A stretch of DNA of 64,000 nucleotides from Methylophilus sp. (GTDB lineage Bacteria; Pseudomonadota; Gammaproteobacteria; Burkholderiales; Methylophilaceae), in assembly GCA_030696695.1 (NCBI GenBank), contig JAUYRP010000021.1:1-64000 (forward strand), given 5' to 3'. The translations under genes and the position numbers were made by a program. Each line of letters starts with the position of its first letter. Positions within the stretch are counted from its first letter, which is position 1. Positions 14,724 to 63,233 of this stretch are shown piece by piece. The notes under the pieces are model-generated. The model was given only the letters and a program-made list of their open reading frames with translations, was not told the DNA's origin and ran no database searches.

Positions 14724-14823
14724 TTCATGCTCAATTGAAGCTCAGACGCGGCGGAGTGCCGATGACAGTACGTTTTTGTACGGCAAGGCATGACAACAAA
14801 GCATGAGCGAAATTCAGCATGAA
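14724..14823 (-). repeat. palindromic element A, downstream of recO
   Basis: A 100-base imperfect inverted repeat. The outer arms (14724-14744 and 14804-14823) match at about 18 of 20 positions. Inside, TGCC/GGCA and GTAC/GTAC stems form a second hairpin. On the minus strand it holds TTTGTTGTCATG and GTACTGTCATCG blocks shared with the element at 58437-58515. Its edge touches the recO stop codon. It may be a mobile palindromic repeat, an mRNA 3' stability element or a terminator; there is no clear T-run. Confidence 0.65.
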
Positions 14824-15567
14824 TTATAAGCCTTGTAAGTCAATCAATAGCTGCCGTGTATGCAAAGGCTTATCGCCTAAATAATGCGTCAATAAATAAC
14901 GCATTAACTGCTTACTTTGCTGTTGTGTTTGTAGCTGCGCATAATCATCTTGCGCCATACTCAACAAGGTTCTGCCCTGCAATTGTACGCCATTTTTGGT
15001 AGCGCTCAGCTCACATGCGCCATACTCAGCCTCATAGCGGTAAGTTTTATCCGCATCAATCGGCGTACCGTTTTCGTCATGTAAGAGCGGAATTGCATAA
15101 CCTAGCTCTTGTAGCAAGGTCAGCTCAAACCTTCTCAAAATAATGGCTAACTCTGTACTATTGTGTGTGGCTTGAATGCGTGAGAGCGCATTAAGCGTTT
15201 CTGTGTAGTAGGCAAACAACGCCTCGTGCGCATCTTCCCTAGGCAGCAAACGCAATAGCAGCTCATTCATATAAAAACCACACATGAGTGCTTCGCCTTT
15301 CAGCAAAGTCAGACCGGCATTCCAATCTAGGCTATGCAATGTCTTCAGCTCATTTTTGCCAGACCATGTACCACTTAAATTTTGAAACGATTGCAACATA
15401 CCCCGCATTGCGGAGCGCGGACGCCTTGCCCCTTTTGCCAACACAGCCACACGACCAAACTGCTGTGTAAATAATTCCACCACCAGACTGGTTTCCTTGA
15501 ATGGGTAAGTGTGGAGCACATACACAGATTGATTGTCTTGACGATGCAAATGAAGCGTAGAGGCCAT
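14824..15567 (-). CDS. recO: DNA repair protein RecO
   Basis: 247 residues. RecO works with RecR and RecF to load RecA on SSB-coated single-stranded DNA. The N-terminal OB fold is seen in SVYVLHTYPFKETSLVVELFTQQFGRVAVLAKGARRPRS (quoted in part here: LHTYPFKETSL and VLAKGARRP). The helical domain follows. The zinc-binding cysteines of some RecO proteins are not evident, as in many gram-negative members. It lies downstream of era in the conserved rnc-era-recO-pdxJ-acpS order, with one extra gene between era and recO. Confidence 0.93.
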   Translation of the reverse strand: MASTLHLHRQDNQSVYVLHTYPFKETSLVVELFTQQFGRVAVLAKGARRPRSAMRGMLQSFQNLSGTWSGKNELKTLHSLDWNAGLTLLKGEALMCGFYMNELLLRLLPREDAHEALFAYYTETLNALSRIQATHNSTELAIILRRFELTLLQELGYAIPLLHDENGTPIDADKTYRYEAEYGACELSATKNGVQLQGRTLLSMAQDDYAQLQTQQQSKQLMRYLLTHYLGDKPLHTRQLLIDLQGL

Positions 15568-15589
15568 AGGTTAATACATGTTTGCTAGG

Positions 15590-16051
15590 CTATTTCGCAA
15601 GCGTTGCCAAACTCTGTAGAACTTCATCTTGCGCTTTTTCTATCAGCAGAGGTACTAACATCTCATTCCCTGAAAAAAGTACCATGGCATAGCGATTAGG
15701 CTGTTGTGCATCTAACGGTGTAAATTTTCCGAAGCCGTAACGCCCATTGCGCATCAGTTGCCATGCGCCTAATGGTTCAGCAAATTCTGGCTTATCGAAT
15801 AAACGATGGATGGTTTCTGTATCTACACTGGTAAGTGGGTAATCATCTTGATCAGCCAAAATCACCCAGCCCATATCACCTTCTTTATTGGTATTTTTAA
15901 GTTGATACATGTACCACTCATTTGACTCATACACTAAGTGAAATACATTATTGATGCCGCCTGTTTTTCGGTTCACGGTGTAGTAAACACCTTGATCATC
16001 CAGTGTAATCGGCTGCGCTAAATGCGTACGATAGGGTGTATCTGTAGACAT
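15590..16051 (-). CDS. hypothetical protein between era and recO
   Basis: 153 residues from the ATG at 16051 (a TTG nine bases upstream would add three residues, but a GGA-containing ribosome site fits the ATG better). There is no signal peptide or membrane segment. It contains VYYTVNRKTGGINNVFHLVYES and GRYGFGKFTPLDAQQPNRY-like stretches with many aromatic residues, suggesting a globular beta-rich cytoplasmic protein. I do not recognise a family. It sits inside the rnc-era-recO run, so it is probably co-transcribed. Confidence 0.75.
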   Translation of the reverse strand: MSTDTPYRTHLAQPITLDDQGVYYTVNRKTGGINNVFHLVYESNEWYMYQLKNTNKEGDMGWVILADQDDYPLTSVDTETIHRLFDKPEFAEPLGAWQLMRNGRYGFGKFTPLDAQQPNRYAMVLFSGNEMLVPLLIEKAQDEVLQSLATLAK

Positions 16052-16136
16052 GATTGTCAATCCAACTGAGGTTACGGAATGTGTCTCCCAACAAAGTATG
16101 TAAGTAAGTTGGTTGCTGCCAGTTAACTTTAGGTGA

Positions 16137-17021
16137 CTAGTAACCTAAACTTTTGAGTGCACGCTCATCGTCTGCCCAACCACCTTTTACTTTTACCCAA
16201 GTTTCTAGGTAAACCTTACTGCCAAACAATTTTTCCATATCTTGACGCGCTTCAGTAGAGATTTGTTTTAGCTTTTCTCCGCCTTTGCCAATAATCATGG
16301 GTTTTTGACTATCTTTGTCTACGATAATTGCGGCAAAAATACGTCTTAAGTTTTTGACTGTTTCAAACTTCTCAATTTCCACCGCAATGGAGTAAGGGAT
16401 TTCATCACCCAATAATCTGAATATTTTTTCACGAATAAGTTCTGCCGCCAAAAAGCGCTCATTTTTGTCTGTCAACTCATCCTCACCGTACATAGCGGGC
16501 TGCTCTGGCAAGTGCTCGCGTGTTGCTAGCAGTAACTCATCTAGATTTAAATTCTTTTTTGCACTCACCGGAATAATGCCTGCAAAGGGGTGTAGCAAAT
16601 CAAAGTCTTGAATCAACGGCAATAAATTACCTTTATCGCCCATCAAATCCGATTTATTGACCACCAACAACACAGGTTTATCTTTTGGCAGCAGGCTAAG
16701 TACTTTTTTGTCGGCATCGCCAAGTTTCATCGGTTCAATCACAAACAACACCACATCCACTTCCGTCAGCACTTGGGTTACGGTTTTGTTAAGTGATTTA
16801 TTGAGTGCATTTAAATGCTTTTGCTGAAAACCAGGGGTGTCGACAAACAAAAATTGGGTGTCTTCCGTGGTGTGTATCCCCAGTAATCGATGGCGGGTAG
16901 TTTGCGCTTTACGCGAAGTAATCGCTAATTTCATCCCCAAAATATGGTTCAGTAAAGTTGACTTACCTACGTTAGGGCGTCCGACGATGGCAACAGTGCC
17001 ACATCTAAAAGTTTCGGTCAT
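16137..17021 (-). CDS. era: ribosome-assembly GTPase Era
   Basis: 294 residues. Era binds 16S rRNA 3' ends and helps 30S maturation. G1 is GRPNVGKST, G3 is DTPGFQ, G4 is NKSD and the C-terminal KH domain contains IIGKGGEKLKQI. The start overlaps the rnc stop by 4 bases, indicating translational coupling as in many proteobacteria. Confidence 0.98.
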   Translation of the reverse strand: MTETFRCGTVAIVGRPNVGKSTLLNHILGMKLAITSRKAQTTRHRLLGIHTTEDTQFLFVDTPGFQQKHLNALNKSLNKTVTQVLTEVDVVLFVIEPMKLGDADKKVLSLLPKDKPVLLVVNKSDLMGDKGNLLPLIQDFDLLHPFAGIIPVSAKKNLNLDELLLATREHLPEQPAMYGEDELTDKNERFLAAELIREKIFRLLGDEIPYSIAVEIEKFETVKNLRRIFAAIIVDKDSQKPMIIGKGGEKLKQISTEARQDMEKLFGSKVYLETWVKVKGGWADDERALKSLGY

Positions 17022-17686
17022 TGTGATATTTTTTCCATGGCAAGTTGTGCCGCTTGTTGTTCTGCATTGCGGCGACTTGTTCCCTCGCCCAGCGTTTTAA
17101 TGTTCAGTTTATTAATCACGCACTCCACTTTAAAACTTTGTGCGTGCGCTTCACCTTCAATTGACACTACCACGTAATCTGGTAACTCAATCTTTTTGCT
17201 TTGCAAGTATTCCTGCAATTGCGATTTTGCATCTTTATCAATGGATTTAGGATCTATTGTGCTGAGCTTCTCTGCAAAGAGTTTTAATACAACCGCCTCA
17301 GCAGCGACAAACCCGCCATCCAGATACACAGCGCCCACAATAGCCTCTAACGCGTCAGCCAAAATAGACGGACGACGCCAGCCAGCACTCTTGAGTTCAC
17401 CTTCTCCTAATTTTAAGTAGTCACCCAAGTTTAGGGTAAGTGCAATTTCGCACAAGCTAGACTCTTTAACCAATTGCGCACGCAAACGACTTAAATCACC
17501 TTCGGGCAATTTAGCAAAGCGATGATACAACTGATGTGCCACGATAAAATTCAGCACACCGTCGCCCAGAAACTCTAAGCGTTCATTGTTATTACCTGAA
17601 AAACTACGATGCGTGATTGCGAGTTGGAGAAGTGATGGAGCGCTAAAGGTATAGCCAATTAAAGGCTGAAGTGATGCTAGTGCCAT
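17018..17686 (-). CDS. rnc: ribonuclease III
   Basis: 222 residues. It cleaves double-stranded RNA during rRNA and mRNA processing. The catalytic signature NERLEFLGDGVLNFI lies near residue 34, and DALEAIVGAVYLDGG near residue 110 carries the second acidic site. A C-terminal dsRNA-binding domain ends GTSRRNAEQQAAQLAMEKI. It is followed by era with a 4-base overlap and preceded at 6 bases by the DUF4845 gene. Confidence 0.98.
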   Translation of the reverse strand: MALASLQPLIGYTFSAPSLLQLAITHRSFSGNNNERLEFLGDGVLNFIVAHQLYHRFAKLPEGDLSRLRAQLVKESSLCEIALTLNLGDYLKLGEGELKSAGWRRPSILADALEAIVGAVYLDGGFVAAEAVVLKLFAEKLSTIDPKSIDKDAKSQLQEYLQSKKIELPDYVVVSIEGEAHAQSFKVECVINKLNIKTLGEGTSRRNAEQQAAQLAMEKISQ

Positions 17687-17692
17687 GCGAAA

Positions 17693-18061
17693 TTATTTTG
17701 CCGCACTGCTTGCTTTAAAATCCAACAAAATACTCATATTGCCAAATAAAGGAATCACTTTTTGATACTCAGCAACGATAGCACCGCCTTCGATGCGAAT
17801 ATCTCGCCCTTGGATACTTTCAATATTGTCTATCGAAGCCTGACGGTCAAAAGCAGTTGCAATTTCTTTCTTGTTGAGCTCACCAGAACTCTCTTTCGCA
17901 ATGGATTTAATCGTTGTGCGTATGGAGTTATACTCAAGATAAGCAGGAATAGACTTCAATACAAATGTGCCGATGAACAAAAGTGCAGCCAATACCAAAA
18001 GCGTGCCCCAAAAAGACATGCCGCGTTGGTAATAACGTTGATTAAGTTTCGATAGTGGCAT
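17693..18061 (-). CDS. DUF4845 single-pass membrane protein
   Basis: 122 residues from the ATG at 18061, chosen because GAGGAG sits about 7 bases upstream; an in-frame ATG seven codons earlier lacks a good site. One membrane segment (GTLLVLAALLFIGTFVL) follows a short basic N-terminus with RGMSFWG. The periplasmic part has the DUF4845 pattern of proteins always found between lepB and rnc in beta- and gammaproteobacteria. The function is unknown. Confidence 0.85.
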   Translation of the reverse strand: MPLSKLNQRYYQRGMSFWGTLLVLAALLFIGTFVLKSIPAYLEYNSIRTTIKSIAKESSGELNKKEIATAFDRQASIDNIESIQGRDIRIEGGAIVAEYQKVIPLFGNMSILLDFKASSAAK

Positions 18062-18084
18062 CTTTGTTCTCCTCACCTGCATAC

Positions 18085-18885
18085 TTACTGAATTGTATTC
18101 CCTATTCTTGAAAACTTATCAAAATTAAACCATATATAAAACGCCTTGCCTACTAAGTTTTGCTCAGGTACAAAGCCCCAAACACGGCTATCAGAGCTAT
18201 TGTCGCGGTTATCGCCCATTGCAAAATAATGACCCTGCGGCACGGTAATCGATTCGCCCGCCATTAATTTAGCGCCTAGAGAACCTGCTTCATATTGATT
18301 CACCAAATCATGAATCAAAATTTCATGCTTCACATCACCCAGCGTTTCCTGATAACGCAAAGCTTGAATAGTCACATCACGGTCTTGGTTATTTTCGTCT
18401 TTGGTCTGCAAAGTATAAATAAAATCGTCTTCACCATTTGCATCGAGCTCTTTACCGTTAACGCTTAAGCGTTTTTCACGATATTCGATAACATCACCAG
18501 GCAAGCCAACCACGCGTTTAATGTAGTCAATAGTGGGCTCAGGTGGGTAGTGAAACACCAGCACATCACCGCGTTTTGGCTCACCCACCTCTACAAAAGT
18601 ACTATTTAAGATAGGCACGCGCAAACCATAGGTAAACTTATTGACCAAAATATAATCGCCTGCCAATAACGTCGGCATCATAGAACCAGATGGGATTTTA
18701 AATGGCTCAACCAAAAAAGAACGGATGACAAATACCAGCAAAATAACTGGGAAAAAGCTTTTGCTATATTCAACATACCAAGGCTCAGCAGCATTTTTTC
18801 TGAGTTTACGTAAAAACAAAATATCCAGTAGCCAAATAATGCCAGTGATCAACAGTATGACCAACATAAACAAAGCAAAGTACAT
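18085..18885 (-). CDS. lepB: signal peptidase I
   Basis: 266 residues. It removes signal peptides from exported proteins at the outer face of the inner membrane. Two N-terminal membrane segments (about residues 2-26 and 44-58) precede the catalytic Ser68 in PSGSMMPTL and the general-base Lys123 in YIKRVVGLPGD. The C-terminal GDNRDNSSDSR box is intact. It is 48 bases downstream of lepA in the same operon. Confidence 0.97.
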   Translation of the reverse strand: MYFALFMLVILLITGIIWLLDILFLRKLRKNAAEPWYVEYSKSFFPVILLVFVIRSFLVEPFKIPSGSMMPTLLAGDYILVNKFTYGLRVPILNSTFVEVGEPKRGDVLVFHYPPEPTIDYIKRVVGLPGDVIEYREKRLSVNGKELDANGEDDFIYTLQTKDENNQDRDVTIQALRYQETLGDVKHEILIHDLVNQYEAGSLGAKLMAGESITVPQGHYFAMGDNRDNSSDSRVWGFVPEQNLVGKAFYIWFNFDKFSRIGNTIQ

Positions 18886-18933
18886 GGTGAATCCCTTTTA
18901 TAATTTATTCTTGTTCGATTTTTTAATGACTAC

Positions 18934-20727
18934 TTACTTATCTTCAACCCTTAATATCGCCAAAAACGCTTCTTGTGGGATTTCAACGTTGCCCACTTGT
19001 TTCATGCGCTTTTTACCTTCTTTTTGCTTATCTAATAATTTACGTTTACGTGACACATCACCACCATAACATTTGGCAATCACGTTTTTACGCATGGCCT
19101 TTACCGTTTCCCGCGCAATAATGTTAGCCCCAATCGATGCTTGAATTGCCACATCGAACATTTGACGCGGAATCAATTCACGCATTTTTGCTGCGACTTC
19201 ACGGCCACGATGCACACTATTAGCACGGTGCACAATCATACTCAGCGCATCCACACGTTCGCCATTCACCATGATATCTAGTTTTACCAAATCTGCAGCA
19301 CGGAACTCTAAAAACTCATAATCCATTGAGGCATAACCACGCGAAACTGATTTCAACTTATCGAAGAAATCCAGCACCACTTCATTCAATGGCATCTCAT
19401 AACTCAACATCACTTGGCGACCCATGTACTGCATGTTTTTTTGTATGCCACGCTTATTGTTACAGAGCGTCATGACTGGGCCCACATAATCTTGAGGCAT
19501 CAACAAATTCACATTAATCATAGGCTCACGCGTTTCTTCAACGCGTGATGGCTCGGGCAATCTCGATGGATTTTCAATCTGTACCACGCTACCGTCTTTT
19601 AGTAACAACTCATACACTACAGTCGGCGCGGTGGTAATTAAATCCATATCGTACTCGCGCTCTAGGCGCTCTTGTACGATTTCCATATGCAGCAAACCTA
19701 AAAAGCCACACCTAAAACCAAAGCCCAACGCCGTTGAATTTTCAGGTTCAAACAGTAACGATGCATCATTTAAACTTAGCTTCTCAAGCGCAGTACGTAA
19801 CGCCTCAAACTGATTTGACTCAACGGGATATAACCCTGCAAACACTTGTGGCTTAACCTCTTTAAACCCTGCTAACGGTTCTGAGGCGGGCCGGCCTGCT
19901 AATGTGACGGTATCGCCCACTTTTGCACTGGCTAACTCTTTAATCCCTGCGATTACAAAGCCTACCTCACCTGCAGACAGCGCCGTTTTTTGCACCGACT
20001 TTGGGGTAAACACACCAACTTGCTCACATAAATGCTCTGAATGTGTAGCCATTAAGCGGATTTTATCTTTTGGTTTTAATACGCCATCGATAACGCGCAC
20101 CAGCATGACCACACCGACATAGTTATCAAACCACGCATCAATCACCAACGCTTTTAATGGTGCGTTTACATCGCCTTTGGGTGGTGGCACTTTCGCAATC
20201 ACCGCCTCTAACACATCACGCACGCCCTCGCCTGTTTTTGCTGAGCAACGCACAGCATCCGTTGCATCTACACCAATCACATCTTCAATTTCTTGAATCA
20301 CACGGTCAGGGTCCGCAGACGGCAAATCAATCTTATTCAACACCGCCGTGACTTCCACACCCAAATCGAGTGCGGTATAACAGTTTGCAACACTTTGCGC
20401 TTCAACCCCTTGACTGGCATCCACCACAAGCAGCGCACCTTCGCACGCTGAAAGCGAGCGCGAAACTTCGTAGCTGAAGTCTACATGTCCTGGCGTATCA
20501 ATCAAATTGAGGTTGTAAAGTTGGCCATCCATGGCTTTGTATTGAAGTGCAGCAGTTTGCGCTTTGATGGTAATACCACGCTCGCGCTCAATATCCATGC
20601 TGTCTAGCACTTGCGCTTCCATCTCGCGGTCAGCCAATCCACCGCAAAGCTGAATAATGCGGTCTGCAAGAGTGGATTTACCGTGATCAATATGAGCGAT
20701 GATGGAGAAGTTGCGGATATTTTTCAT
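18934..20727 (-). CDS. lepA: elongation factor 4 (LepA)
   Basis: 597 residues. It is a ribosome-associated translational GTPase. G1 is [13 protein letters not shown], followed by the effector segment [15 protein letters not shown]3 DTPGHVDF and G4 NKIDLP. The LepA-specific C-terminal domain ends with [21 protein letters not shown]. It heads the lepA-lepB-DUF4845-rnc-era run. Confidence 0.98.
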
Positions 20728-20754
20728 TATTTACTTTAGCGTTTAAAAACAGGT

Positions 20755-20775
20755 AAGGCGCATAAAGCGCCTTTT
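20755..20775 (+). terminator. terminator-like hairpin facing away from lepA
   Basis: AAGGCGC and GCGCCTT form a 7-bp stem with loop ATAAA, and a T-run follows on the plus strand only. It lies 27 bases upstream of the lepA start, so it would stop plus-strand (antisense) transcripts leaving lepA rather than lepA mRNA. Confidence 0.45.
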
Positions 20776-21171
20776 TAACTAGGCGTGATTTTACTACAAA
20801 GGCTTGATTAGGTTGTAATTAATTATGTCTTCATACCACTTTCATACTTGCGCCATCTATGCAAAAAACAACGGCTTTCATTACACAGATATTGAATGCT
20901 ACCCACCTGCATTTTGCACTGGAGATAAAAAGAGACGAAATCACAACAATTTTAGAATGCCCTAGCAATATTGCATTTCCCTCCATGCATTACCTATCAC
21001 TAGTAAAACTTATGTAGTAAACTCAAAAAGCGTTATAGATGATTCAGTAAGCACTGAATCTTCGTGCAAAATATCAACTTGCTTTTTGCATTACCTACTT
21101 TCTTTTATAGGCTTGTAAGTTGACATTGAATTTGTACGTTAAATGATGATTTAACGGAGCAAGGATCCACA
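20776..21171. other. 396-base intergenic region with two hairpins
   Basis: This AT-rich stretch separates lepA (minus) from the AsmA-like gene (plus). I see no open reading frame or RNA gene. It holds two adjacent hairpins: GATTCAGT/ACTGAATC (21041-21060, loop AAGC) and TGCAAAA/TTTTGCA (21065-21090). A TTGACA at 21120-21125 with a weak -10-like AATGAT at 21142-21147 may be the promoter of the downstream gene; its ribosome site is probably GGAG or AGGA just before the ATG at 21172. Confidence 0.5.
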
Positions 21172-23643
21172 ATGAATTTATCAACGGTTTATTGCAGAAC
21201 CAGCAAAGGTGCTAGAGCTTTGTCTTTAAAAAACAAAGTCCTTCCGCCTAGCCATATCCAAGTGCTCACGAAAACCGACGGTAAACTAGATGCAAAATCT
21301 GTGATGCAAGCCATAGGCAAACTCACAGAATATCAATACACCCAAATTCTCATCCAACTCATTAATGACGGTTTCGTGATTGCTAAAAGTGATTTCGATG
21401 AAACTGCATTTTTCACCTCTAACACAGTTAACCCCATGGTGGTGGAAGAGCTACAAACCAAACAATTTTTTGACACCAGCTTTGGCAGCGCGATTACACG
21501 GTCAGCAAGCACAACACCAGTAGCAACCTTTAACAAGCAAGAGCAAGCACTGCAAGGCAAAGCACGTGCACAAGCGGAATTGGATGCCGAAGCTGTCAAC
21601 ATTGCAGAAGTTAAAGCAGCAATTGAAGCTAAATTAAAAACAGAGGCAGAGGCCGAAGCCAGAGCAAAAGCAGAAGCTGAAGCGCAAGCCAAAGCAGAGG
21701 CCGAAGCCAGAGCAAAAGCAGAAGCTGAAGCGCAAGCCAAAGCAGAGACCGAAGCCAGAGCCAAAGCAGAAGCGCAAGCCAAAGCAGAAGCGCAAGCAAA
21801 AGCAGAAGCTGAAGCGCAAGCCAAAGCAGAGGCCGAAGCCAGAGCCAAGGCAGAGACCGAAGCCAGAGCCAGAGCCAAAGCAGAGGCCGAAGCCAGAGCC
21901 AAAGCAGAAGCGCAAGCCAAAGCAGAAGCGCAAGCCAAAGCAGAGGCCGAAGCCAGAGCCAAGGCAGAGACCGAAGCCAGAGCCAGAGCCAAAGCAGAGG
22001 CCGAAGCCAGAGCCAAGGCAGAGACCGAAGCAAAAGCAGAAGCTGAGGCGCAAGCCAAGGCAGAGACCGAAGCCAGAGCAAAAGCAGAAGCTGTGGCGCA
22101 AGCCAAGGCAGAGACCGAAGCAAAAGCAGAAGCTGAGGCGCAAGCCAAGGTAGAGGCCGAAGCAAAAATTGCAGCCATTCTAACTAAGCATCAACACAAA
22201 CAACCCAAGCAAGTTAAACAACATATTGAAATTGATGAGTCAGCATTTGGCGATACCTTCTCTGCAATAGATGAGCATGATGACCGTAGGCATTCATCCA
22301 ATCAGGAAGCCATGGAGGATGAATCAACACCCAATATTTTTCAGAATATCGCAGCCAGCATTCAGCAAAAAAGCCTCAGCACTAAACCCAAACGACAGTT
22401 CTCACTGTTGAAAATCGTTGGCTTTACTCTGCACTACTTGGTCACGTTTGTTACACACTGGTTAACGCCGATTGTCTTGGGATTAGCTGGCTTGGCTGTC
22501 GTGTTGGTATTGCTCAGCCACATCCCCATGGTGATGAGCCCCTTTATTGGCCAGATGGAAAAAATAGCCGGCGAGCACATTGGCGAGCGTGTCAAAATCC
22601 ACAAATTGCGTACATCGTTATTGCCGCCACGATTGATATTGGATCAAGTCAATGTCGGCAATATGTCAGAGATTGAAATTAAATCTGTCAGCATGTTTGT
22701 GAACTGGGATAGTTTGTCCACGCCTATCAGCCAAATTGAATTGGTTGGCATGAACGTGACTCCGTCCCAAGTCAAACGCATGACGGGCTGGGTTAGTCAT
22801 AGCCAAACACAAACGCCATTACAAGTTGCGCGCATTCAAATGCGCGACATAACCATCCAGCTAAACCAAGCCAAATTACCAACCTTTAATGCAACAGTCA
22901 TATTTAATCCGTTAAATCGAGTTGAGACTGCGGATATCAAGCTCGTCGAGCAAGACGCTACTGCAACCCTTACTGCGCAGGACGATGCCTACAGCGTTTT
23001 GGTACAAGCAAAACGACTGGTTATGCCAATAGGCGCGCCTGTGCTTATTCAAACATTGAAGGCTGAAGGCTTTGCTAATGCGCAAACAATGACAATTGAC
23101 CGTATGCAAGGCAATTTGTATGGCGGCACGTTTGAAGGCTCAGCGATTATGGGTTGGTCCAACAATTGGAATATTACTGGCAAACTCAATATTAAAGACG
23201 CTGGATTAGACGGCTTGGCGCCTAACTTTGGCACAATACAAGCCAAAGGCAACTTAGCTACTGAAATCAATTTTGCTGCGGTCTCAGCGAATATTGAACG
23301 TATATTTGACAGACCAACAATCAAAGCAAGATTCACGGTGGAACAAGGCGATGTGAGTTGGATTGACATCATTCGCGCCATTCAGGTAGCTAAAAAAGGG
23401 ATGGCCATCAATGGCCCAACTAATTTTGATCAATTGAGTGGTCAATTAACGGTCAAAAATGGGCAATATGCCTATGAACAGCTTGTACTTAAATCAGGCA
23501 ACCTAAGAGCAACTGGTGCGTTTACCATTCAAGAAAACCAACAACTCAAGGGTAACATACGCGTGAACTTAAGCACGCCTAACCGCAAAGTGAAATCCAC
23601 GTTGCAACTGGCAGGCTCAACGTCACAGCCACAAACCAAATAA
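21172..23643 (+). CDS. AsmA-like inner-membrane protein with long Ala/Lys/Glu coiled coil
   Basis: 823 residues in four parts. Residues 1-85 are a small globular domain ([20 protein letters not shown]), perhaps winged-helix. About 157-331 is a TolA-like run of AKAEAEAR and AKAEAQ units, expected to be one long helix. About 430-452 is a membrane segment ([15 protein letters not shown]). The rest is an AsmA-like periplasmic region. AsmA proteins normally start with the membrane segment, so a 430-residue cytoplasmic extension is unusual. It is transcribed against its neighbours and splits the otherwise conserved rpoE-mucD and lepA-era blocks. Confidence 0.85.
21640..22165 (+). repeat. in-frame tandem repeat tract (Ala/Lys/Glu codons)
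   Basis: About 525 bases made of imperfect 18- and 24-base units coding AKAEAQ or AKAEAEAR, with larger blocks repeated nearly exactly (for example around 21840-21900 and 21955-22015). All units are multiples of six bases, so gain or loss keeps the reading frame. The tract creates long open frames on the minus strand that are not genes. Confidence 0.95.
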
Positions 23644-23660
23644 GGCGAGTACCAGCAACA

Positions 23661-23692
23661 AAAAACCGCATGCGTTAAAGATGCGGTTTTTT
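23661..23692 (+). terminator. intrinsic terminator between the AsmA-like gene and mucD
   Basis: AAAACCGCAT (23662-23671) and ATGCGGTTTT (23681-23690) form a 10-bp stem followed by a T-run; the A-run on the left lets it serve the convergent mucD transcript too. Confidence 0.85.
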
Positions 23693-23730
23693 ATGCAAAC
23701 GTGTGATCAACACGCTTTAATCAGCAAGCA

Positions 23731-53255: not shown

Positions 53256-53278
53256 CTGTGCTTCACTTTTTTCCAAGC

Positions 53279-53308: not shown

Positions 53309-53376
53309 ACTAGCTTCTGACCCGCTTTTGCGCGAAAATAGCATATGAAAATAAACTATATCTAAACACGCAAAAA

Positions 53377-55442: not shown

Positions 55443-55453
55443 GGCAACTATTT

Positions 55454-56407
55454 ATGTTTCTTCACACGCGTTTGCGTTGGTTATTGTTTGCTTGTTTGAG
55501 TTTAGTTGCAACGCTGGCGATTGCAGCCGCAGATGTGGCCTATTTACTCACGGCCGCTTCTAAAGGTGACCTTGAGACGGTCAATGCCATGCTCAAAAGT
55601 GGCGTCAACCCGAATACGCAAGATGATGACCATATCAGCGCTTTAATGTACGCAGCGCGTAAAGACCGTGCCGATGTGGCAGCGGCGCTTATCGCAAAAG
55701 GTGCGGATATCAATGCCAAAGACAAAGGTGGTTGGACAGCACTGATGTTCGCCGCCAAAAAGAATAATGTTGCATCGGTACAAGTATTATTGAACAACGG
55801 TGCCGATGCAAAAGTGCGCGACCCATCTGGTTGGAGCGCACTTGGCTTAGCCGCGACTTCTGGATACAGTCAAGTCGTTGATTTAATTATTAAAAGTGGG
55901 ATTGATGCCAACACCAAAAGTGATGATGGAAAACCCGTGCTGATGTACGCTGCCAAAAGCGGCGATATTCCTACCATCACTAGCTTGGTCAACAATGGTG
56001 CCAAGCTAGACACCCAAGACAAGTTAGGTACGACTTCTTTGATGATTGCAGCGCGTGAAGGCCATGCGCCAGCTGTACGCTTTTTATTGGAAAAAGGTGC
56101 AGATGTAGATGAGCAGGATAATTCAAAATGGACCGCGCTGACATGGGCAGTTAAAAAATCGCAAGTGGGAGTTGCCAGTGCGTTAATTGCCAAAGGCGCA
56201 AATGTGAATCACGAAGATTCTGAGGGCACGCCATTGTTGCAGTTGGCCGTTGATGTGAACTCAGCCGAGATGGTGCGACTATTGCTCGACAACAAAGCCG
56301 ATGTGAAGGCGCGCGACCAATATGGTTTGACTGCTTATGTGTACGCACTCAAACGTAAAAATCCTACCATCGTTGAAATGATCAAAAATGCTGGTGGCAA
56401 ATATTAG
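55454..56407 (+). CDS. exported ankyrin-repeat protein
   Basis: 317 residues with a signal peptide (RWLLFACLSLVATLAIA) and about eight ankyrin repeats covering the rest (for example GDLETVNAMLKSGVNPNTQ, DRADVAAALIAKGADINAKD). It lies 11 bases after sucD and 9 before nadE. Periplasmic ankyrin proteins bind partners; none is indicated here. A second, shorter one is at 45.6 kb. Confidence 0.92.
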   Translation: MFLHTRLRWLLFACLSLVATLAIAAADVAYLLTAASKGDLETVNAMLKSGVNPNTQDDDHISALMYAARKDRADVAAALIAKGADINAKDKGGWTALMFAAKKNNVASVQVLLNNGADAKVRDPSGWSALGLAATSGYSQVVDLIIKSGIDANTKSDDGKPVLMYAAKSGDIPTITSLVNNGAKLDTQDKLGTTSLMIAAREGHAPAVRFLLEKGADVDEQDNSKWTALTWAVKKSQVGVASALIAKGANVNHEDSEGTPLLQLAVDVNSAEMVRLLLDNKADVKARDQYGLTAYVYALKRKNPTIVEMIKNAGGKY

Positions 56408-56416
56408 TCACACATC

Positions 56417-58021
56417 ATGAAAATTGCGATTGCTCAACTCAATGCCATGGTGGGTGATATGCATGGCAATGCTAAAAAAATCATCGCCTATGCACATGAG
56501 GCACATGCCGCAGGCGCCAACTTATTGGTCACACCAGAGCTTGCACTATGTGGCTACCCGCCTGAAGATCTACTGTATCGTGATGACTTTATGGTAGCTA
56601 ATCAACGTGCGCTACATGAGATTTGTCACCATATTCCGCCTGATCTCAGTTTACTGGTTGGCCATCCACACAAAAGCAAAGGTGCTTTATTCAATGCAGC
56701 TTCGTTGATTCAACATGGCAAAGTGCAAGCCACCTATCACAAACAAGTATTGCCCAACTACAGCGTGTTTGATGAAGAGCGCTATTTTGAGCCAGGCGAC
56801 ACACCTTTAGTGTTTGCATTGGGCAATCTAAAAATAGGTGTATTGATATGCGCAGATGGCTGGGAAAAGGCACCTGCCATGCGCGCGAAAGAAGCTGGCG
56901 CTGAACTGCTGATTTCGCTGAATGCATCACCGTACCATATGGACAAACTCAACACCCGCTATGAAATATTAGCGGATCGAGTAAAAGAAACTGGTCTCGC
57001 TTTGATTTACACCAATTTGGTGGGTGGGCAAGATGAGTTAGTATTTGACGGTGCTTCATTTGTACTGAACCAACAAGGTCAGGTCTCACAACAGTTACCT
57101 GCGTTTATAGAGCAGCTGAGTTATGTTGAGATCAATAACAAACAACCCGTAACTACTCCGCTTACCCCGCCTTTGAGCCTTGAAGCCACGGTATATCATG
57201 CGCTTACCCTTGGCTTAGCCGATTATGTGAATAAAAATGGCTTCCCCAGTGTGGTCTTAGGTTTATCGGGCGGCATAGACTCGGCTCTTACGCTTGCTAT
57301 TGCAGTGGATGCCTTGGGCGCTGATCGTGTCAAAGTGGTGCTGATGTCCTCAGAATTCACCTCTCATATCAGCGTAGATGATGCTATTGATATGGCCAAA
57401 CGCGTCGGTGTGCATTACAGCATGATTCCTATCAAAACCTTATTTGATACTTTCCGCACAGCGTTAGCGCCAGAATTTGGTGACCGCCCATTTGATACTA
57501 CTGAAGAAAACTTACAAGCACGTATTCGCGGTATGTTGCTAATGGCACTCTCTAACAAGTTTGGCAGCATAGTGCTCACCACAGGCAATAAATCAGAAAT
57601 GGCGGTTGGCTATAGCACCTTATATGGCGATATGGCAGGTGGCTTTTCGTTGCTGAAAGATGTGCCCAAAACCCTAGTGTACAAATTGGCAGCCTACAGA
57701 AATACATTGGCTGAAATTATCCCAGAACGCATCATTACCAGAGCACCCAGCGCAGAATTAAAACCTAACCAAACCGATCAAGACAGCTTGCCGTCATACG
57801 AAGTGTTAGATGCGATTATGCAAGCGTATGTGGAAGAAGACATGAGTCGTCAAGCCATTATGCAATTGGGGTATCATGCCAAAGATGTGATGCGCGTCAC
57901 GCAATTAATTGATAGAAACGAATATAAGCGCAGACAAGCACCCGTGGGCGTGAGAATTACACAAAAAGGCTTTGGCAAAGATAGGCGCTATCCCATTACC
58001 TGCAAGTTAACGTTTGAATAG
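56417..58021 (+). CDS. nadE: glutamine-dependent NAD+ synthetase
   Basis: 534 residues. The N-terminal nitrilase-type glutaminase has its Glu in TPELALCGYPPEDL, its Lys in YHKQVLPNYSVF and its Cys in GVLICADGWE. The synthetase P-loop LGLSGGIDSALTLAI lies near residue 281. It amidates NaAD to NAD and complements the NadB encoded at 28 kb. The PII gene follows after 68 bases. Confidence 0.97.
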   Translation: MKIAIAQLNAMVGDMHGNAKKIIAYAHEAHAAGANLLVTPELALCGYPPEDLLYRDDFMVANQRALHEICHHIPPDLSLLVGHPHKSKGALFNAASLIQHGKVQATYHKQVLPNYSVFDEERYFEPGDTPLVFALGNLKIGVLICADGWEKAPAMRAKEAGAELLISLNASPYHMDKLNTRYEILADRVKETGLALIYTNLVGGQDELVFDGASFVLNQQGQVSQQLPAFIEQLSYVEINNKQPVTTPLTPPLSLEATVYHALTLGLADYVNKNGFPSVVLGLSGGIDSALTLAIAVDALGADRVKVVLMSSEFTSHISVDDAIDMAKRVGVHYSMIPIKTLFDTFRTALAPEFGDRPFDTTEENLQARIRGMLLMALSNKFGSIVLTTGNKSEMAVGYSTLYGDMAGGFSLLKDVPKTLVYKLAAYRNTLAEIIPERIITRAPSAELKPNQTDQDSLPSYEVLDAIMQAYVEEDMSRQAIMQLGYHAKDVMRVTQLIDRNEYKRRQAPVGVRITQKGFGKDRRYPITCKLTFE

Positions 58022-58059
58022 TCATGGGTTAATGAGTAGAATAATTGCGAATGCATTGA

Positions 58060-58428
<369 letters not shown>

Positions 58429-58436
58429 TCGTGTCC

Positions 58437-58515
58437 GTCAAACATGTACGTTGTTGCATGTGCTTGTAGTACCTTGATGTACTGTCTTCGCACATGCGCC
58501 TAGTACCTGTTTGAC
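58437..58515 (+). repeat. palindromic element B, downstream of the PII gene
   Basis: A 79-base structure of nested stems: outer GTCAAACA-t-GTAC with GTAC-c-TGTTTGAC, middle GCATGTGC (58456-58463) with GCACATGC (58490-58497), and inner AGTAC with GTACT around a 6-base loop. Single-stranded blocks ACGTTGTT, ACTGTCTTCGC and GCCTAGT are shared with the element at 63162-63233, and TTGTTG and GTACTGTC with that at 14724-14823. It is the best-preserved of the three. Confidence 0.75.
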
Positions 58516-58549
58516 TTCTTTATCGCACTCTACCTACAAGCTAAAATAA

Positions 58550-58894
58550 ATGAGCGCAACTCTACTTAAAACCATTGTTCTGCTCAGCATTTCAAACTTA
58601 TTCATGCTGTTCGCATGGTATGGCCACCTAAAAAATCTGAATAGCAAACCTTGGATTATTGCGGCTCTAATTAGTTGGGGCATAGCACTGATTGAATATC
58701 TATTTCAAGTACCGGCTAATCGTATTGGCTTCACCCAGTTCAATTTGGCACAACTCAAAATACTGCAAGAAGTGATTACCCTAGCGGTATTTGTCCCCTT
58801 TGCTATTTATTATATGCAACAGCCTATCAAGCTTGATTTTCTATGGGCGGCGCTCTGTTTGATGGGTGCGGTGTATTTTATATTTAGGAATTAA
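58550..58894 (+). CDS. DUF486 family small membrane protein
   Basis: 114 residues with four membrane helices. The family pattern is clear: LFMLFAWYGHLK near residue 18, WGIALIEYLFQVPANRIGF near 44 and LKILQEVITLAVFVPFAIYY near 73. It resembles small DMT-type transporters; the substrate is unknown. It converges with kdsB, 3 bases apart. Confidence 0.9.
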   Translation: MSATLLKTIVLLSISNLFMLFAWYGHLKNLNSKPWIIAALISWGIALIEYLFQVPANRIGFTQFNLAQLKILQEVITLAVFVPFAIYYMQQPIKLDFLWAALCLMGAVYFIFRN

Positions 58895-58897
58895 AGC

Positions 58898-59632
58898 TTA
58901 TCCAAATAAGCTCCGCACGTAATCCAAATCCTCTTGCGTATCCACTCCACTGGCGGGTGCGTGCTGTGTCACAGTCACCCCAATTTTAAAACCATGATGC
59001 AACACCCGTAACTGCTCCAAACTTTCGATTTTCTCTAGCGCGGTGACTGATAAATCTGCATATTGCTTTAAAAATCCCACTCGATAAGCATAAATGCCAA
59101 CATGGCGAAACGCTTGAATACGCTGCTTGTATTGGTCATCGCGCGGATACGGAATTGGCGCACGACTAAAATATAAGGCATTGCCTTTGTGATCAGTCAC
59201 AACTTTCACAATATTGGGGTTTAAAAACGCCCCTTCATCGTGGATAGGGTGACAAGCGGTGGCCATGACCGCTTCAGTATTGCTTACCAGATGTTCTGCC
59301 ACTTCATTGATTAACGCTGGGTCAATCAAAGGCTCATCCCCTTGCACATTGACTACAATCGCATCATCAGGCCAGCCCATCGCCTCTACTACTTCAGCAA
59401 TACGATCGGTGCCTGATACGTGCGAGATACGTGTCATGACGGCTTGTTTGCGATGCGCTTGTGCGACTTCGATGATTTTTTCAAAATCAGTGGCAATCAC
59501 AATCTCTTCTGCATCACTTTTTTCGGCTTGCTCTACCACACGAATGACCATGGGTTTACCAGCAATATCTAACAAAGGCTTTCCAGGCAAACGCGTACTG
59601 GCATAACGCGCGGGAATCACAACTTTAAACAT
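58898..59632 (-). CDS. kdsB: 3-deoxy-manno-octulosonate cytidylyltransferase
   Basis: 244 residues. It activates Kdo with CTP for lipopolysaccharide. The nucleotide-binding VIPARYASTRLPGKPL at the start and NVQGDEPLIDPALI near residue 95 are diagnostic. It is last in the msbA-lpxK-Trm112-kdsB envelope run. Confidence 0.97.
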   Translation of the reverse strand: MFKVVIPARYASTRLPGKPLLDIAGKPMVIRVVEQAEKSDAEEIVIATDFEKIIEVAQAHRKQAVMTRISHVSGTDRIAEVVEAMGWPDDAIVVNVQGDEPLIDPALINEVAEHLVSNTEAVMATACHPIHDEGAFLNPNIVKVVTDHKGNALYFSRAPIPYPRDDQYKQRIQAFRHVGIYAYRVGFLKQYADLSVTALEKIESLEQLRVLHHGFKIGVTVTQHAPASGVDTQEDLDYVRSLFG

Positions 59633-59658
59633 GAGGTCAGTTTACCAATCAGGCTGGA

Positions 59659-59844
59659 TTAATCTTCTAGATATTCTTTTTCTTCTAATTTACGTGCTTC
59701 GTCTTCCAGCATCACAGGAATACCATCACGCACTGGGTAGGCTAAACGCGCTGCTTTAGAAACCAACTCGTTGCTGGCTTTATTGTAAATCAGCGGGCCT
59801 TTGGTCACAGGGCACACCAAAATTTGCAGTAATTTCGAATCCAT
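59659..59844 (-). CDS. Trm112 family protein (YcaR type)
   Basis: 61 residues. [21 protein letters not shown] and [11 protein letters not shown] match the family. Only one cysteine remains of the zinc-ribbon pair. Its start overlaps the lpxK stop by one base. The gene is usually found between lpxK and kdsB, as here; its bacterial role is unclear. Confidence 0.93.
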
Positions 59845-60860
59845 TATCTATCCTTTGTAGCAAGTTGTTTTAGTGATTGTATGACGGCCGTGTGGAACGG
59901 TGGTAAATTTTCTGCGAACAGCTCTGCCTGTATGGGTAGATACCAAGCGTCATGCAATGGTAGCGACTGGCATTTCACCGCATCTTTTTCTGTCATCAAT
60001 ATTGTCTCGTGTTGGACATCTGTAAAATCTTCAAGTTTAAATGGGTGATGATCTGGAAATGTACGCGTATTAAAACGTAAACCCAATGTCGTGAGCGACT
60101 TAAAAAAACGCTCTGGATGACCAATCGCTGCAAATGCATAGACCACTCTATCTTTAAAAAACATGGCGGAGTGTGATTGCTGTTCATTTAGAGAGTGAAA
60201 AATATCGCCCTTGACCCGCATTTGATATGCGCTTAGCGCATCATCCTTTAAAAGTAATGGTGCTTCACCACTATTGACCACCATGTTTACAGATTGCAAG
60301 CGAGACACCTGCTCTCGCAAGGGGCCTGCTGGTAATAAGCATTGATTCCCCAGTGCTTGTTTATTCACCAGTACAATTTCAATATCACGCTGTAATCGCA
60401 AGTGTTGTAAACCATCGTCACTGACGATCACATTGCAATTCTGGTAACTATTTAATAATGCTTGCCCCGCAGCTACGCGGTCAGGGTTCACAGAAACAGG
60501 CACACCGGCCCGTCTCGCCATCAGTACTGGCTCATCCCCCATCAATGCAGGTGCACTATCAGCAGTTACCAACCCTATTTGCTTGCCGCCATAGCCACGG
60601 CTGATAATGCCAGGGGTGTAACCCGCCGCTTTGAGTTGCTCTACCAAGTAAATCACCAATGGTGTTTTACCGGTTCCACCCACCGTGATATTACCTACTA
60701 CAATGACGGGGACAGCGAGCCGGTGCGAAGGAAGAATATTGAAACGATAAAGTAAACGCCTACCAAATGAGAGCGCGGCAAACAACCAAGAAAGCGGCAG
60801 CAACAGATAATGTGCGAAGCGTTTTGATTGCCATTGTTGTTGAAGCCAGTTTTCTATCAC
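59844..60860 (-). CDS. lpxK: tetraacyldisaccharide 4'-kinase
   Basis: 338 residues. It phosphorylates the lipid A precursor at the inner membrane. A short N-terminal membrane helix is followed by the P-loop [18 protein letters not shown] near residue 54 and by [16 protein letters not shown] near 145. It lies 5 bases after msbA. Confidence 0.96.
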
Positions 60861-60865
60861 GATGG

Positions 60866-62620
60866 TTAGGTGTCAAACTCTTTGTAGTAAAGCTTGCTGT
60901 AATAGCCGTTTTGCGCAAGCAATGTTTGATGTGAACCAGACTCGACAATACGCCCATGGTCCATCACTAAAATTCGGTCAGCATTTTCAATGGTACTCAA
61001 ACGATGTGCAATCACCAAGGTAGTACGACCTTGCATTAAGGTATCTAACGCTGCCTGTACATGTTGTTCCGACTCACCATCCAACGCCGAGGTTGCTTCA
61101 TCTAATAACAAAATGGGTGCATTTTTAAGGATAGCGCGTGCAATCGCGATTCGCTGCTTTTGGCCACCAGATAAGCGCACACCACGATCACCGATCTCAT
61201 TTTGCAAACCATCGGGCATTTGCTGAATAAAGTCCCATGCGTGTGCTGCTTTTGCAGCGGCAATTACATCAGACTCGCTGGCGTTTCTCAACACCCCATA
61301 AGCGATATTATTAAAAATAGTGTCATTGAATAACACAATATCTTGACTCACTAGCGAGTACTGCGAGCGGAGATTACGCAGCTCTAATGCTCGAATATCT
61401 ATACCATCTAGCAAAATCATGCCTTGCTGTAACTCATAAAATCTAGGTAGCAAATTCACCAATGTGGTTTTTCCGCTGCCTGAGCGACCAACCAATGCCA
61501 CTTTCTCACCTGGTTGGATGGTAAAACTCAAATGATCAATCGCAAGCCTTTTGGCATTTTCATAACGAATGGATACGCTTTTAAATTCTATTTCACCACG
61601 CGCACGTGCAATCAACTTATCACCCTCATTCATTTCATGTGGGCTATCAATTAAATCAAACACACTTTGCGCTGCGGCTAAACCAATTTGCAAGTCTTCA
61701 TTGGCAGCCGCGATGTGTTTAATCGGCGCAATCATCATCAGTAACGCACCGACAAATGCTGCAAACTCCCCTACTGTAAATTGACCCATCGCGTAATACA
61801 CCACCAACATTAACGCCAAGGCAGCTAGAATTTCAATCACAAAACTACTCAAACCAGCGATACGTGTGGACCGTAATTCAAACTGCGCATTTTTATTGAC
61901 CACATGACTGAAACGATCGATTTCATAGGGCTCAGCGCCAAATATTTTAACGATACGTTGACCAGCAATGGCTTCCTCAGCACTTTTGGTAATTTCACCT
62001 ACGCCCTGTTGCACTTTTTTTGCATTAGCACGTAATTTTGGCGTCATTTTGCTTAAGTAGAACGCCATAAAAGGCGTAACAGTGGCAAACACTAGAGTCA
62101 AACGCCAATCTAAATACAGCATATAACCAACCAAGCCTATCACGGTCAGCACATCACGCACTACATTGAGAGCAGAGCGTGTGGTCACCGAAGATAAACG
62201 TTCAACGTCATAGGTCAGCTTTGACACCAGTAACCCTGTTGAACTCGCATCGAAGAAGTTTACGGGTAGCTGCATGAGTTTTTCAAATGCCTGCACTCTT
62301 AATTGCGCCACTACTCTTCTTGCCACAATTTTTAAGCTATAGACGGAAGCGAAACCAGAGAATGCGCGGACAGTCATCAACGCAAACAGCATGATAGGCA
62401 AGACCCAAACTTGATCAGGGGCTTGTTTAACAAACCCTTCATCCGTGACTTTTTTGATGATGGCCAAAAAGGCCGTGTTACTACCTGAAAGGATTACCGT
62501 AGCGAGGATAGTGATAAGAAAATATATCTTGTGCTGCCATGCATATCGGAACAAACGCAAATACAACGCTTTTGCATTTGCGATATGCGGTAAATCCTGC
62601 TTATTTTTATGTCGTGCCAT
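60866..62620 (-). CDS. msbA: lipid A export ATP-binding/permease protein
   Basis: 584 residues. It is a half-size ABC exporter that flips lipid A-core across the inner membrane. Six membrane helices precede the ATPase: Walker A VGRSGSGKTTLV, signature LSGGQKQRIAIARA, Walker B ILLLDEATSALD and switch AHRLST. The lpxK neighbour supports the lipid A role. Confidence 0.95.
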   Translation of the reverse strand: MARHKNKQDLPHIANAKALYLRLFRYAWQHKIYFLITILATVILSGSNTAFLAIIKKVTDEGFVKQAPDQVWVLPIMLFALMTVRAFSGFASVYSLKIVARRVVAQLRVQAFEKLMQLPVNFFDASSTGLLVSKLTYDVERLSSVTTRSALNVVRDVLTVIGLVGYMLYLDWRLTLVFATVTPFMAFYLSKMTPKLRANAKKVQQGVGEITKSAEEAIAGQRIVKIFGAEPYEIDRFSHVVNKNAQFELRSTRIAGLSSFVIEILAALALMLVVYYAMGQFTVGEFAAFVGALLMMIAPIKHIAAANEDLQIGLAAAQSVFDLIDSPHEMNEGDKLIARARGEIEFKSVSIRYENAKRLAIDHLSFTIQPGEKVALVGRSGSGKTTLVNLLPRFYELQQGMILLDGIDIRALELRNLRSQYSLVSQDIVLFNDTIFNNIAYGVLRNASESDVIAAAKAAHAWDFIQQMPDGLQNEIGDRGVRLSGGQKQRIAIARAILKNAPILLLDEATSALDGESEQHVQAALDTLMQGRTTLVIAHRLSTIENADRILVMDHGRIVESGSHQTLLAQNGYYSKLYYKEFDT

Positions 62621-62679
62621 GGTACTTAGTTATGCTTCCAATGATTGTCGATGAAGCTAACCATCAAGAACGGCTGATA

Positions 62680-63102
62680 TTAAGAGCCCGAGTTCACCTG
62701 TGTTGCAAAGGTAATATGGGTAAAGTTGGCCAGACGTGACGCCTCCATAACATTAATCACTGATTGATGCGTCGCTTTTGCGTCTGCATTGATAATGATG
62801 GTTGGGTCTTTGCCTTCGCCTACCGCTTTTACCAAAGCTGAGGAAATTGCGGTGACGCTCTCGCCATTCACCGCACTACCGTTAATCATGTAACGCCCGG
62901 TCGCATCTACTTCCACCGTAATGGTCAGTGGCTTTTCTTGTGGCGCATTTGCTTCAGCTGTTGGCAAATTAATTTGTAATTCGCTAGTACGTGAGAACGT
63001 AGCACTCACGATTAAGAAGATAATAATGACCAACAACACGTCGATAAGCGGAATAAAGTTTATCTCTAGTTCCTCGTGTTTTTTACCACGCTGAAAATTC
63101 AT
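62680..63102 (-). CDS. exbD: ExbD/TolR family biopolymer transport protein
   Basis: 140 residues. A basic N-terminus (MNFQRGKKHEELEINFIPL) is followed by one membrane helix with the proton-path Asp (PLIDVLLVIIIFLIVSATF, Asp near residue 20) and a periplasmic domain. It pairs with the upstream ExbB to drive TonB- or Tol-type energy transfer. No tonB is in the window. Confidence 0.95.
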   Translation of the reverse strand: MNFQRGKKHEELEINFIPLIDVLLVIIIFLIVSATFSRTSELQINLPTAEANAPQEKPLTITVEVDATGRYMINGSAVNGESVTAISSALVKAVGEGKDPTIIINADAKATHQSVINVMEASRLANFTHITFATQVNSGS

Positions 63103-63161
63103 GAGTTTCCTCTTAGCACTTTTTAATATTTAAATAACTGATTGAATAAATGGGGGATATT

Positions 63162-63233
63162 GCGTTTTAACTAGGCACTTGAGCGCAGACAGTGCATTCA
63201 GTACGGCTAGCGAAAGTAACAACGTTAAAACGC
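63162..63233 (-). repeat. palindromic element C, between exbB and exbD
   Basis: A 72-base structure whose ends GCGTTTTAAC (63162-63171) and GTTAAAACGC (63224-63233) pair perfectly. On the minus strand it has ACGTTGTT, ACTGTCTGCGC and GCCTAGT in the same order as the element at 58437-58515, but with different stem sequences. Inner pairing (ACTT/AAGT, GCACT/AGTGC alternatives) is less clear than in element B. It begins 11 bases after the exbB stop. Confidence 0.65.

Follow-up and report, generated by a model that had tools for sequence, protein, structure and literature searches.

Correia elements have been under study since the 1980s as a peculiarity of Neisseria. In the parts of the papers available, Correia elements are described as unique to Neisseria (PMC5039591), the Correia repeat is reported to be found solely in Neisseria, and Correia hairpins in Neisseria mRNAs are said to be bound by RNase III (PMC2649163). 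Among open-licence papers, the literature searches listed no report of Correia-type elements outside Neisseria save for the BRE, which is not linked to Correia there; the available part of the BRE paper (PMC3110155) names NEMIS merely as another repeat. The Correia core is described here in elements outside Neisseria, those of the window having unrelated outer arms and lying right behind stop codons. The DNA analyzed (the window) is a 64,000-nucleotide stretch of a Methylophilus sp. contig.

Three elements of the window and their family in the genus

Three elements, denoted A, B, and C, are listed with their neighboring genes in Table 1. The coordinates, strands, and shared blocks that had been read from the letters alone (the sequence-only reading) all match the sequence, and the gaps of 0, 8, and 11 bases behind the stops of recO, glnB, and the exbB/tolQ-type gene were confirmed. 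The motif CTGTCTNCGC..GCCTAGT, common to B and C, occurs twice in the window against 0 expected and twice in the genome, in which the reversed pattern has 0 occurrences.

Table 1. Positions of the three elements and of the adjacent genes in the window
Feature	Position	Strand	Location	Remarks
Element A	14724..14823	-	Directly 3' of the recO stop, in the recO-pdxJ gap	Most diverged of the three; cap recognizable mainly in the inner hairpin
Element B	58437..58515	+	8 bases past the glnB stop	Model match 58430-58522
Cap (conserved core) of element B	58448..58504	+	Between the two arms	Sequence and family consensus
Element C	63162..63233	-	11 bases past the exbB/tolQ-type stop, ahead of the exbD/tolR-type gene	Model match 63152-63243
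recO	14824..15567	-	Host gene of element A	NCBIfam TIGR00613
pdxJ	13888..14622	-	Downstream of element A	NCBIfam TIGR00559
glnB-type P-II gene	58090..58428	+	Host gene of element B	NCBIfam NF008111, under the curated cut-off
exbB/tolQ-type gene	63245..63910	-	Host gene of element C	NCBIfam TIGR02796 and TIGR02797, both under cut-off
exbD/tolR-type gene	62680..63102	-	Downstream of element C	NCBIfam TIGR02801, under cut-off

Single-sequence folding provided z values of -2.96, -5.77, and -1.63 for A, B, and C, respectively; with a value of only -1.63, element C is not convincing by itself. Rfam searches with B and C gave no match at E ≤ 10, and at the gathering score the window and six loci yielded only tRNAs. 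Covariance model R2 was built from 21 sequences of other genomes, with B, C, and the exbB ortholog of genome G048 excluded and A never included. At E ≤ 5, R2 recovered exactly A (1.8e-7), B (1.3e-13), and C (1.2e-15) in the window and nothing else, these E-values being rough by the tool's own statement. Every copy consists of a conserved asymmetric cap atop a long stem. That the stems differ yet still pair, so that structure rather than sequence is kept, is borne out by 144 two-sided cells versus 55.7 in shuffles (24 sequences). Two-sided changes exceed those in shuffles within 10 of 13 orthologous groups, and there is no covariation excess in the other three. Elements A, B, and C are confirmed as real, related, and structured.

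Model R1 detected 12 copies at E < 1e-4 in the whole genome, where element A has an E-value of 7.1e-6, and copies in 21 of the 22 genus genomes. The idea of one widespread family is upheld by these further copies and by the covariation; the contrary outcome, a lack of copies or random placement without covariation, did not occur. In the genus, 101 of the 111 copies could be assigned to 20 loci, and 79 of these 101 have, between -10 and +15 relative to the model start, the stop of a gene in the same orientation. Fifteen of the 20 loci are at a stop in gene orientation, often inside operons (edd-eda, ureA-ureB, nuoC-nuoD), and four are antisense. In the yajQ copies, the start of the following gene is often 9-20 bases past the model end.

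The three sites of the window differ among relatives in the presence or the arms of the element. Among the 101 placed copies, a model match at the recO site occurs only in this genome. The glnB site carries a degraded element B in G130, cap elements with other arms in G048 and G133, and simple hairpins in several other genus genomes. At the exbB site the same element C is present in G048, a copy with other arms in G130, and a decayed copy in G133, and no element is visible at 16 other readable genus junctions. The arms of the 12 copies in this genome have a similarity of 0.42, compared with 0.41 for random 17-mers, and the copies are therefore old here.

The cap, its distribution, and target duplication

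The family shares the cap CGTTG..CCTTGCCGTACTnnnnGTACTGTCTGCG..GCCTTG with the Correia/NEMIS elements (CREE) of Neisseria. A genome scan identified 117 cap sites, of which 14 are flanked on both sides by published Correia ends with at most 2 mismatches each (end letters from PMC5039591). The remaining sites carry other ends and are found in many Betaproteobacteria, some Gammaproteobacteria, and Streptococcus; the cap arms differ in other genera, and the reversed pattern gave 0 matches over the many taxa scanned. In BLAST, a Cupriavidus element matched at least 40 places in each of two N. gonorrhoeae records through the core only, and phage records had no match to a gonococcal element. Neisseria loci such as L056 and L087, whose cap is flanked by published ends, are matched by a model trained on family copies including those of the window, a result that is partly built in because these loci were preselected by the cap pattern. 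That one core recurs in several orders and as far afield as Streptococcus, combined with very dissimilar ends, suggests a function of the core as such.

Mobility is apparent in the relative G010, where arm similarity among 13 copies reaches 70% or more in 20 of 78 pairs and the repeat family ends in AGAGCGGCTAACAAAA. Of 23 measurable repeat pairs, 14 are bordered by the same three bases on both sides, always TTA or TAA; the other nine have no exact duplication. A gene stop lies at one end of 11 of the 23 pairs, and in 10 the cap pattern used is not matched. The marks of a MITE, namely shared terminal inverted repeats, target duplication, and many copies, thus come together in the G010 family. 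The 12 copies of the Methylophilus genome, taken alone, have no common terminal repeat, and a clear target duplication is absent at A and B, so that the case for their MITE origin comes from the cap and from the relatives. By eye, C and some genus copies show a TA pattern, which A and B lack. Inspection of 30 of the 64 places revealed no autonomous element bearing the G010 repeats. Unpaired repeats are seen at six loci examined.

Elements A, B, and C are probably old copies of a non-autonomous MITE superfamily defined by the conserved asymmetric Correia-core hairpin cap, and we read them as neither terminators nor RAYT-linked REPs. Transposition would be catalyzed by a putative transposase supplied in trans. 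With TTA/TAA as the target, TAA stop codons would be natural insertion sites, and the duplication would rebuild the TAA stop, making insertion at a gene end tolerable; together these steps may explain why the elements hug stop codons. A TAA target, if true, would be a simple reason for such placement of small repeats. After insertion the arms would drift past recognition with complementarity maintained, which suggests that selection for folding preserves the hairpin. Symmetric repeats and targets leave the orientation bias unexplained; the polarity of the kept hairpin may be set by the cap.

A broader and more tentative proposal, on balance doubtful, takes the Correia core to be an ancient, portable, strand-polarized hairpin module adopted by MITEs with different terminal repeats in Betaproteobacteria, Gammaproteobacteria, and Streptococcus. 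Its functional fold would form on one fixed strand, as ssDNA or opposite-strand RNA, and would be kept at about 15 gene or operon ends in the genus; a shared cap function, not a shared transposase, would lie behind the conservation of the cap amid the exchange of all its surroundings. The comparative set makes the function of the core testable in harmless bacteria.

Strand polarity and alternative origins

Isolated stem mismatches were counted on the strand assigned in the sequence-only reading. C-containing and G-containing mismatches number 61 versus 20 in the genus and 76 versus 25 in other genera, whereas the terminator-like hairpins of the same loci have the opposite trend (0 versus 13). 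The folded strand looks as if it were opposite to the assigned one, an unexpected result that weakens the mRNA-hairpin reading. Folding of both strands was compared for 96 of 101 genus elements and 81 of 96 others after removal of duplicates and of elements shorter than 85 bases. Whole-element energies lean to the opposite strand (p = 0.16 for the genus and 0.0012 for the others), the arms fold better on it (p = 2e-6 and 3.5e-6), and for the core by itself the assigned strand gives the slightly better fold (p = 0.058 and 0.0093). Strand choice is unsettled by whole-element folding energy and is clear for the arms only. A scarcity of G·U pairs, once taken as the sign of a plain DNA palindrome, was dropped in favor of strand polarity after the mismatch counts. 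The count may reveal which hairpin strand is selected and could be tried on other bacterial palindromes.

Whatever their origin, the elements could in this genus be domesticated intercistronic RNA hairpins with a role in the mRNA past the stop codon, such as that of RNase III sites or of stability barriers between operon genes. Such a role would agree with the 15 loci at stops in gene orientation, often between operon genes, with the structure maintained across orthologs, with the mRNA-strand preference of the core, and with the RNase III binding noted above for Neisseria. It is nonetheless unlikely, given that the mRNA-strand mismatches are of the unstable C-containing kind, the arms fold better on the other strand, four of the 20 loci are antisense, and no Rfam family matches. 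A strand-specific DNA hairpin is weakly preferred over an mRNA hairpin.

Much less probable is a REP/RAYT or other IS200/IS605-like single-strand transposition system, even though the stem has strand polarity and 72 of 106 loci have the cap strand on the G-rich strand (8-kb GC skew, noisy). Lagging-strand insertion would yield a bias of this kind, and the skew fits strand-specific insertion or retention. The suggested RAYT/REP link is unsupported in that PF01797 (Y1_Tnp) has 0 matches in the genome, compared with matches in 5 of 14 control genomes. In G010, moreover, the arms act like terminal inverted repeats and come with a 3-base target duplication, which IS200/IS605 elements are not known to make. 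The CGTC and GTAG REP families, with stems of 8-9 or 5-13 base pairs and terminal tags in the available description (PMC3733652), are unlike these elements. The alternatives first offered were a structured RNA or a single-strand-processed mobile repeat; a mobile-repeat origin is supported by the cap and the G010 duplications, a structured RNA in the transcript of the host gene is doubtful from the mismatch polarity, and single-strand processing is possible.

Ordinary intrinsic terminators alike by chance, although suggested by the position after stops and by the simple hairpins of the glnB site, are hardly credible and are refuted as a full account by the cap common to many taxa and by the lack of any terminator-like site (GC-rich stem and T tract) in the three regions at a scan loop limit of 8, which falls short of a whole element, and they also conflict with the closely following gene in the yajQ copies; the original rejection of chance terminators therefore stands.

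Comparison with known systems

Integron attC sites are likewise located behind stops, and it is their bottom strand that folds. The present elements resemble CREE, as far as the available text describes them (PMC2649163, PMC5039591), in a length of about 100 bases, a hairpin, and interspersed copies. Unlike CREE, the arms in this genome are unrelated to each other and lack the 26-base Correia inverted repeat TATAGTGGATTAA.., and there are only 12 copies, mostly at stop codons. BREs (Hot et al. 2011, PMC3110155), compared by description only and from part of that paper, are likewise about 90 bases long, mostly intergenic, sometimes tandem, and present in many Betaproteobacteria; the three cap copies of Silvimonas locus L048 are comparable to tandem BREs. 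The available part of the same paper states that BREs are not co-oriented with replication, in contrast to the G-rich-strand bias of the cap. RUP and other small TA-target MITEs, compared by description only from the accessible portion of PMC2229807, are similar in being non-autonomous, in having terminal repeats, and in being supposedly mobilized in trans.

The cap elements and their neighboring genes

The positions, strands, and shared sequence blocks proposed for palindromic elements A, B, and C, together with their distances from the upstream stop codons, were borne out on reading all three places (Table). The adjacent genes were identified with NCBIfam, with glnB and exbB/exbD below the curated cut-offs; the TolQ/TolR models score somewhat above ExbB/ExbD for the exbB/exbD-type pair. 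Taken by itself, folding gives strong evidence for B, moderate evidence for A, and weak evidence for C. An Rfam search with the elements gave no match.

Table. Positions of the palindromic elements, with gene context and folding scores
Element	Positions	Strand	Upstream gene	Bases after stop	Folding z
A	14724-14823	minus	recO	0	-2.96
B	58437-58515	plus	glnB	8	-5.77
C	63162-63233	minus	exbB/tolQ-type	11	-1.63
Nested element, genome G010	L349:1380-1526				
Tandem elements, Silvimonas terrae	L048:1840-2078				

The motif common to B and C has 2 matches in the window versus 0 expected. Among 150 genomes of the family (own genome counted), 22 carry it, at 27 places altogether, and the reversed pattern was found in none. 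Identical spacing and a common cap, a conserved asymmetric hairpin core, are present at 27 of 27 places. The cap reads AC-GTY-GTT, a variable inner stem, GCTTGCC-GTAC, a loop, GTAC-TGTCTNCGC, the second arm of the inner stem, and GCCTA-GT. The loop contains 4-7 bases (5 in 21 of 27, with one unparsed), and a long stem of variable sequence, the arms, lies outside the cap. The stems vary yet pair, as the sequence-only reading had claimed: 144 two-sided cells were counted in 24 of the 27 sequences versus 55.7 in shuffles, far above slid versions.

Further copies, for which a genome search had been suggested, were obtained with covariance model R1, whose training set included B and C. At E<1e-4, R1 detects 12 copies in the window's own genome, rising to 15 at E<=1; scoring covered 150 of the 796 first-look candidates, and weak copies may thus have gone undetected. 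Model R2 was trained on 21 sequences without B, C, and the exbB ortholog of genome G048 to avoid circularity, and it detects only A, B, and C in the window at E<=5. Placement after a stop codon holds for 9 of the 12 own copies, which follow a same-orientation gene (model start between 3 bases inside and 15 past the stop), and fails for three: the reversed copies in the iscS-iscU gap and in a gap beside a gene we take to be lnt, and L035. On contig C15, outside the window, a clear cap match (L039) follows groEL, and a weak cap-like match (L041, E 0.2) precedes it, behind a small ORF that is presumably groES-like.

Loci, age, and mobility

The cap elements of the window are real and constitute one family, mobile in origin and old in its own genome. 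In the genus, 21 of 22 genomes contain R1 matches, 111 copies in all. Copies are present in 57 of 90 genomes of the family, representing 15 of its 22 genera (maximum 31, in G010), and in 18 of 299 genomes of a phylum sample with filters stricter than elsewhere. The 101 of 111 genus copies that were fetched and re-matched fall into 22 automatic groups, or 20 loci after two doubles were merged by hand. By locus (typical copy), 15 of 20 share the gene's orientation and lie between -8 and +15 bases relative to a stop, 4 are antisense between tandem genes, and 1 is neither; by copy, a same-orientation stop lies at -10 to +15 in 79 of 101. The loci include edd-eda (17 copies), ppnP-yajQ, GntR-malic enzyme, groEL, a ureG-type gene, ureA-ureB, nuoC-nuoD, aspS, and, antisense, iscS-iscU; ureB, nuoD, and some other names are our presumed assignments, the remaining families being identified by search. 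In 10 of 13 groups, two-sided Watson-Crick changes are more numerous than in shuffles (0 to 3 of 500 shuffles reach them), with no excess for nuoC, the L031 group, and a group of two members; the shuffles ignore relatedness, and the result therefore supports, rather than proves, the covariation expected by the sequence-only reading. The arms of the 12 own copies have a mutual similarity of 0.42 versus 0.41 for random 17-mers, and the core 0.50.

At recO-pdxJ, no element is present in gaps of 0 (G136) and 35 bases (G048); further relatives had longer junctions, junctions at contig ends, or misparsed ones. The glnB site carries the element in the window's genome (G000), a degraded one in G130, and cap elements with other arms in G048 and G133; elsewhere simple hairpins or different neighbors appear. 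The caps at the glnB 3' end in relatives have two unrelated arm pairs (L262 and L264 versus L261 and L263), as could result from either recurrent insertion at a single site or very rapid replacement of the arms. At exbB-exbD, G000 and G048 carry the element, G130 has a different one, and G133 a decayed one; none is visible in 16 other readable junctions.

One arm repeat occurs at 64 places in G010 (<=2 mismatches) versus 1 for the reversed control. Among 23 measurable repeat pairs from fetched loci, identical 3-base flanks (TTA or TAA in every case) occur in 14, and a gene stop at one of the ends in 11; 6 of the 7 pairs with cap and stop both readable are in gene orientation. We infer that the elements insert into TTA/TAA, for which TAA stop codons would be natural targets; TGA as a target is only a guess. 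The pattern used gives no cap in 10 of the 23 pairs, although in some of these a degraded cap can be made out by eye. G010 also has short palindromes that share these ends but lack a recognizable cap (L335-L351, e.g., L337 and L345); they may be deletion derivatives or a separate class. One repeat-ended element (L349) apparently has a second capped hairpin, with other arms, inserted into it or fused to it, as in a nested insertion.

Strand polarity of the stems

G.U is expected above A.C in an RNA helix. Isolated non-Watson-Crick positions, counted once per locus or arm family, gave 11 G.U versus 29 A.C in the genus and 16 versus 38 in other genera; G- versus C-containing mismatches numbered 20 versus 61 (p 6e-6) and 25 versus 76 (p 4e-7), respectively. 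The model behind the alignments was built for the named strand (that of the host gene for A, B, and C) and should favor G.U there, so alignment bias probably opposes the A.C excess. On the RNA strand, 15 terminator-like hairpins from the same loci gave 12 G.U and 0 A.C (13 G- and 0 C-containing), and 88 other hairpins were symmetric (37 and 40). The named strand is G-rich in 72 of 106 wide-set loci among the matches listed (p 3e-4), a preference hardly related to gene direction (59 of 106, among the matches listed). Folding evidence is mixed: the arms favor the opposite strand (p 2e-6, 3.5e-6) and the cores, slightly, the named strand, with a clear difference for whole elements only outside the genus. 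The cap's invariant U.G and G.U positions are wobbles on the named strand, a point against the opposite-strand reading. Mutation bias may lie behind the mismatch polarity. Taken as a whole, the strand evidence points to strand-specific DNA behavior, or to RNA of the other strand, and argues against an mRNA hairpin as the selected form.

Wide distribution and relation to known repeats

The inner-cap pattern was scanned against 84,980 named genomes, one per species, for exact-pattern copies only. At least 109 stretches were found, mostly from Neisseria and other Betaproteobacteria among the matches listed, with at least 7 from Streptococcus and at least 5 from Gammaproteobacteria (Regiella 2, Avibacterium, Rappaport, and Cardiobacterium); one among the matches listed is named only Pseudomonadota. 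Among the matches listed, with single-sequence folds defining the element ends, 30 of 72 cases have a sense-gene stop no more than 25 bases from the 5' end; at the 3' end, the stop of an antisense gene was seen in 11 of 52 (p 0.02).

The window elements are related to the Correia elements of Neisseria. The Correia core ends are CCGGTACGG and TCAGGACAA in PMC2649163, and N. gonorrhoeae L056 carries both, with 0 mismatches in its Correia ends. A BLAST search with a Cupriavidus element aligned only the core, at 40 or more places in each of two gonococcal records. Neisseria loci of the scan carry the published Correia end, as lettered in PMC5039591; it flanks both sides of 14 of 117 cap sites among the matches listed (<=2 mismatches). 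Other arms are GAGGCTGTTGCAAAAT (Burkholderiaceae MAG L112), TAGAGCCGCTAACAAAACC (Neisseriaceae bacterium L067), ATTCCATTTCC (Accumulibacter L044), several of TATAG type (Neisseria genome JAUNTY01), and TAGTC type (Regiella L109 and Streptococcus L058). The arms differ between loci; therefore, one cap is common to many end sets. The window elements are not strict Correia elements because they lack the Correia ends. Three tandem cap elements with a spacing of ~106 bases in Silvimonas terrae resemble the tandem BRE (beta-proteobacterial repeat element) arrays of Bordetella, as described in PMC3110155.
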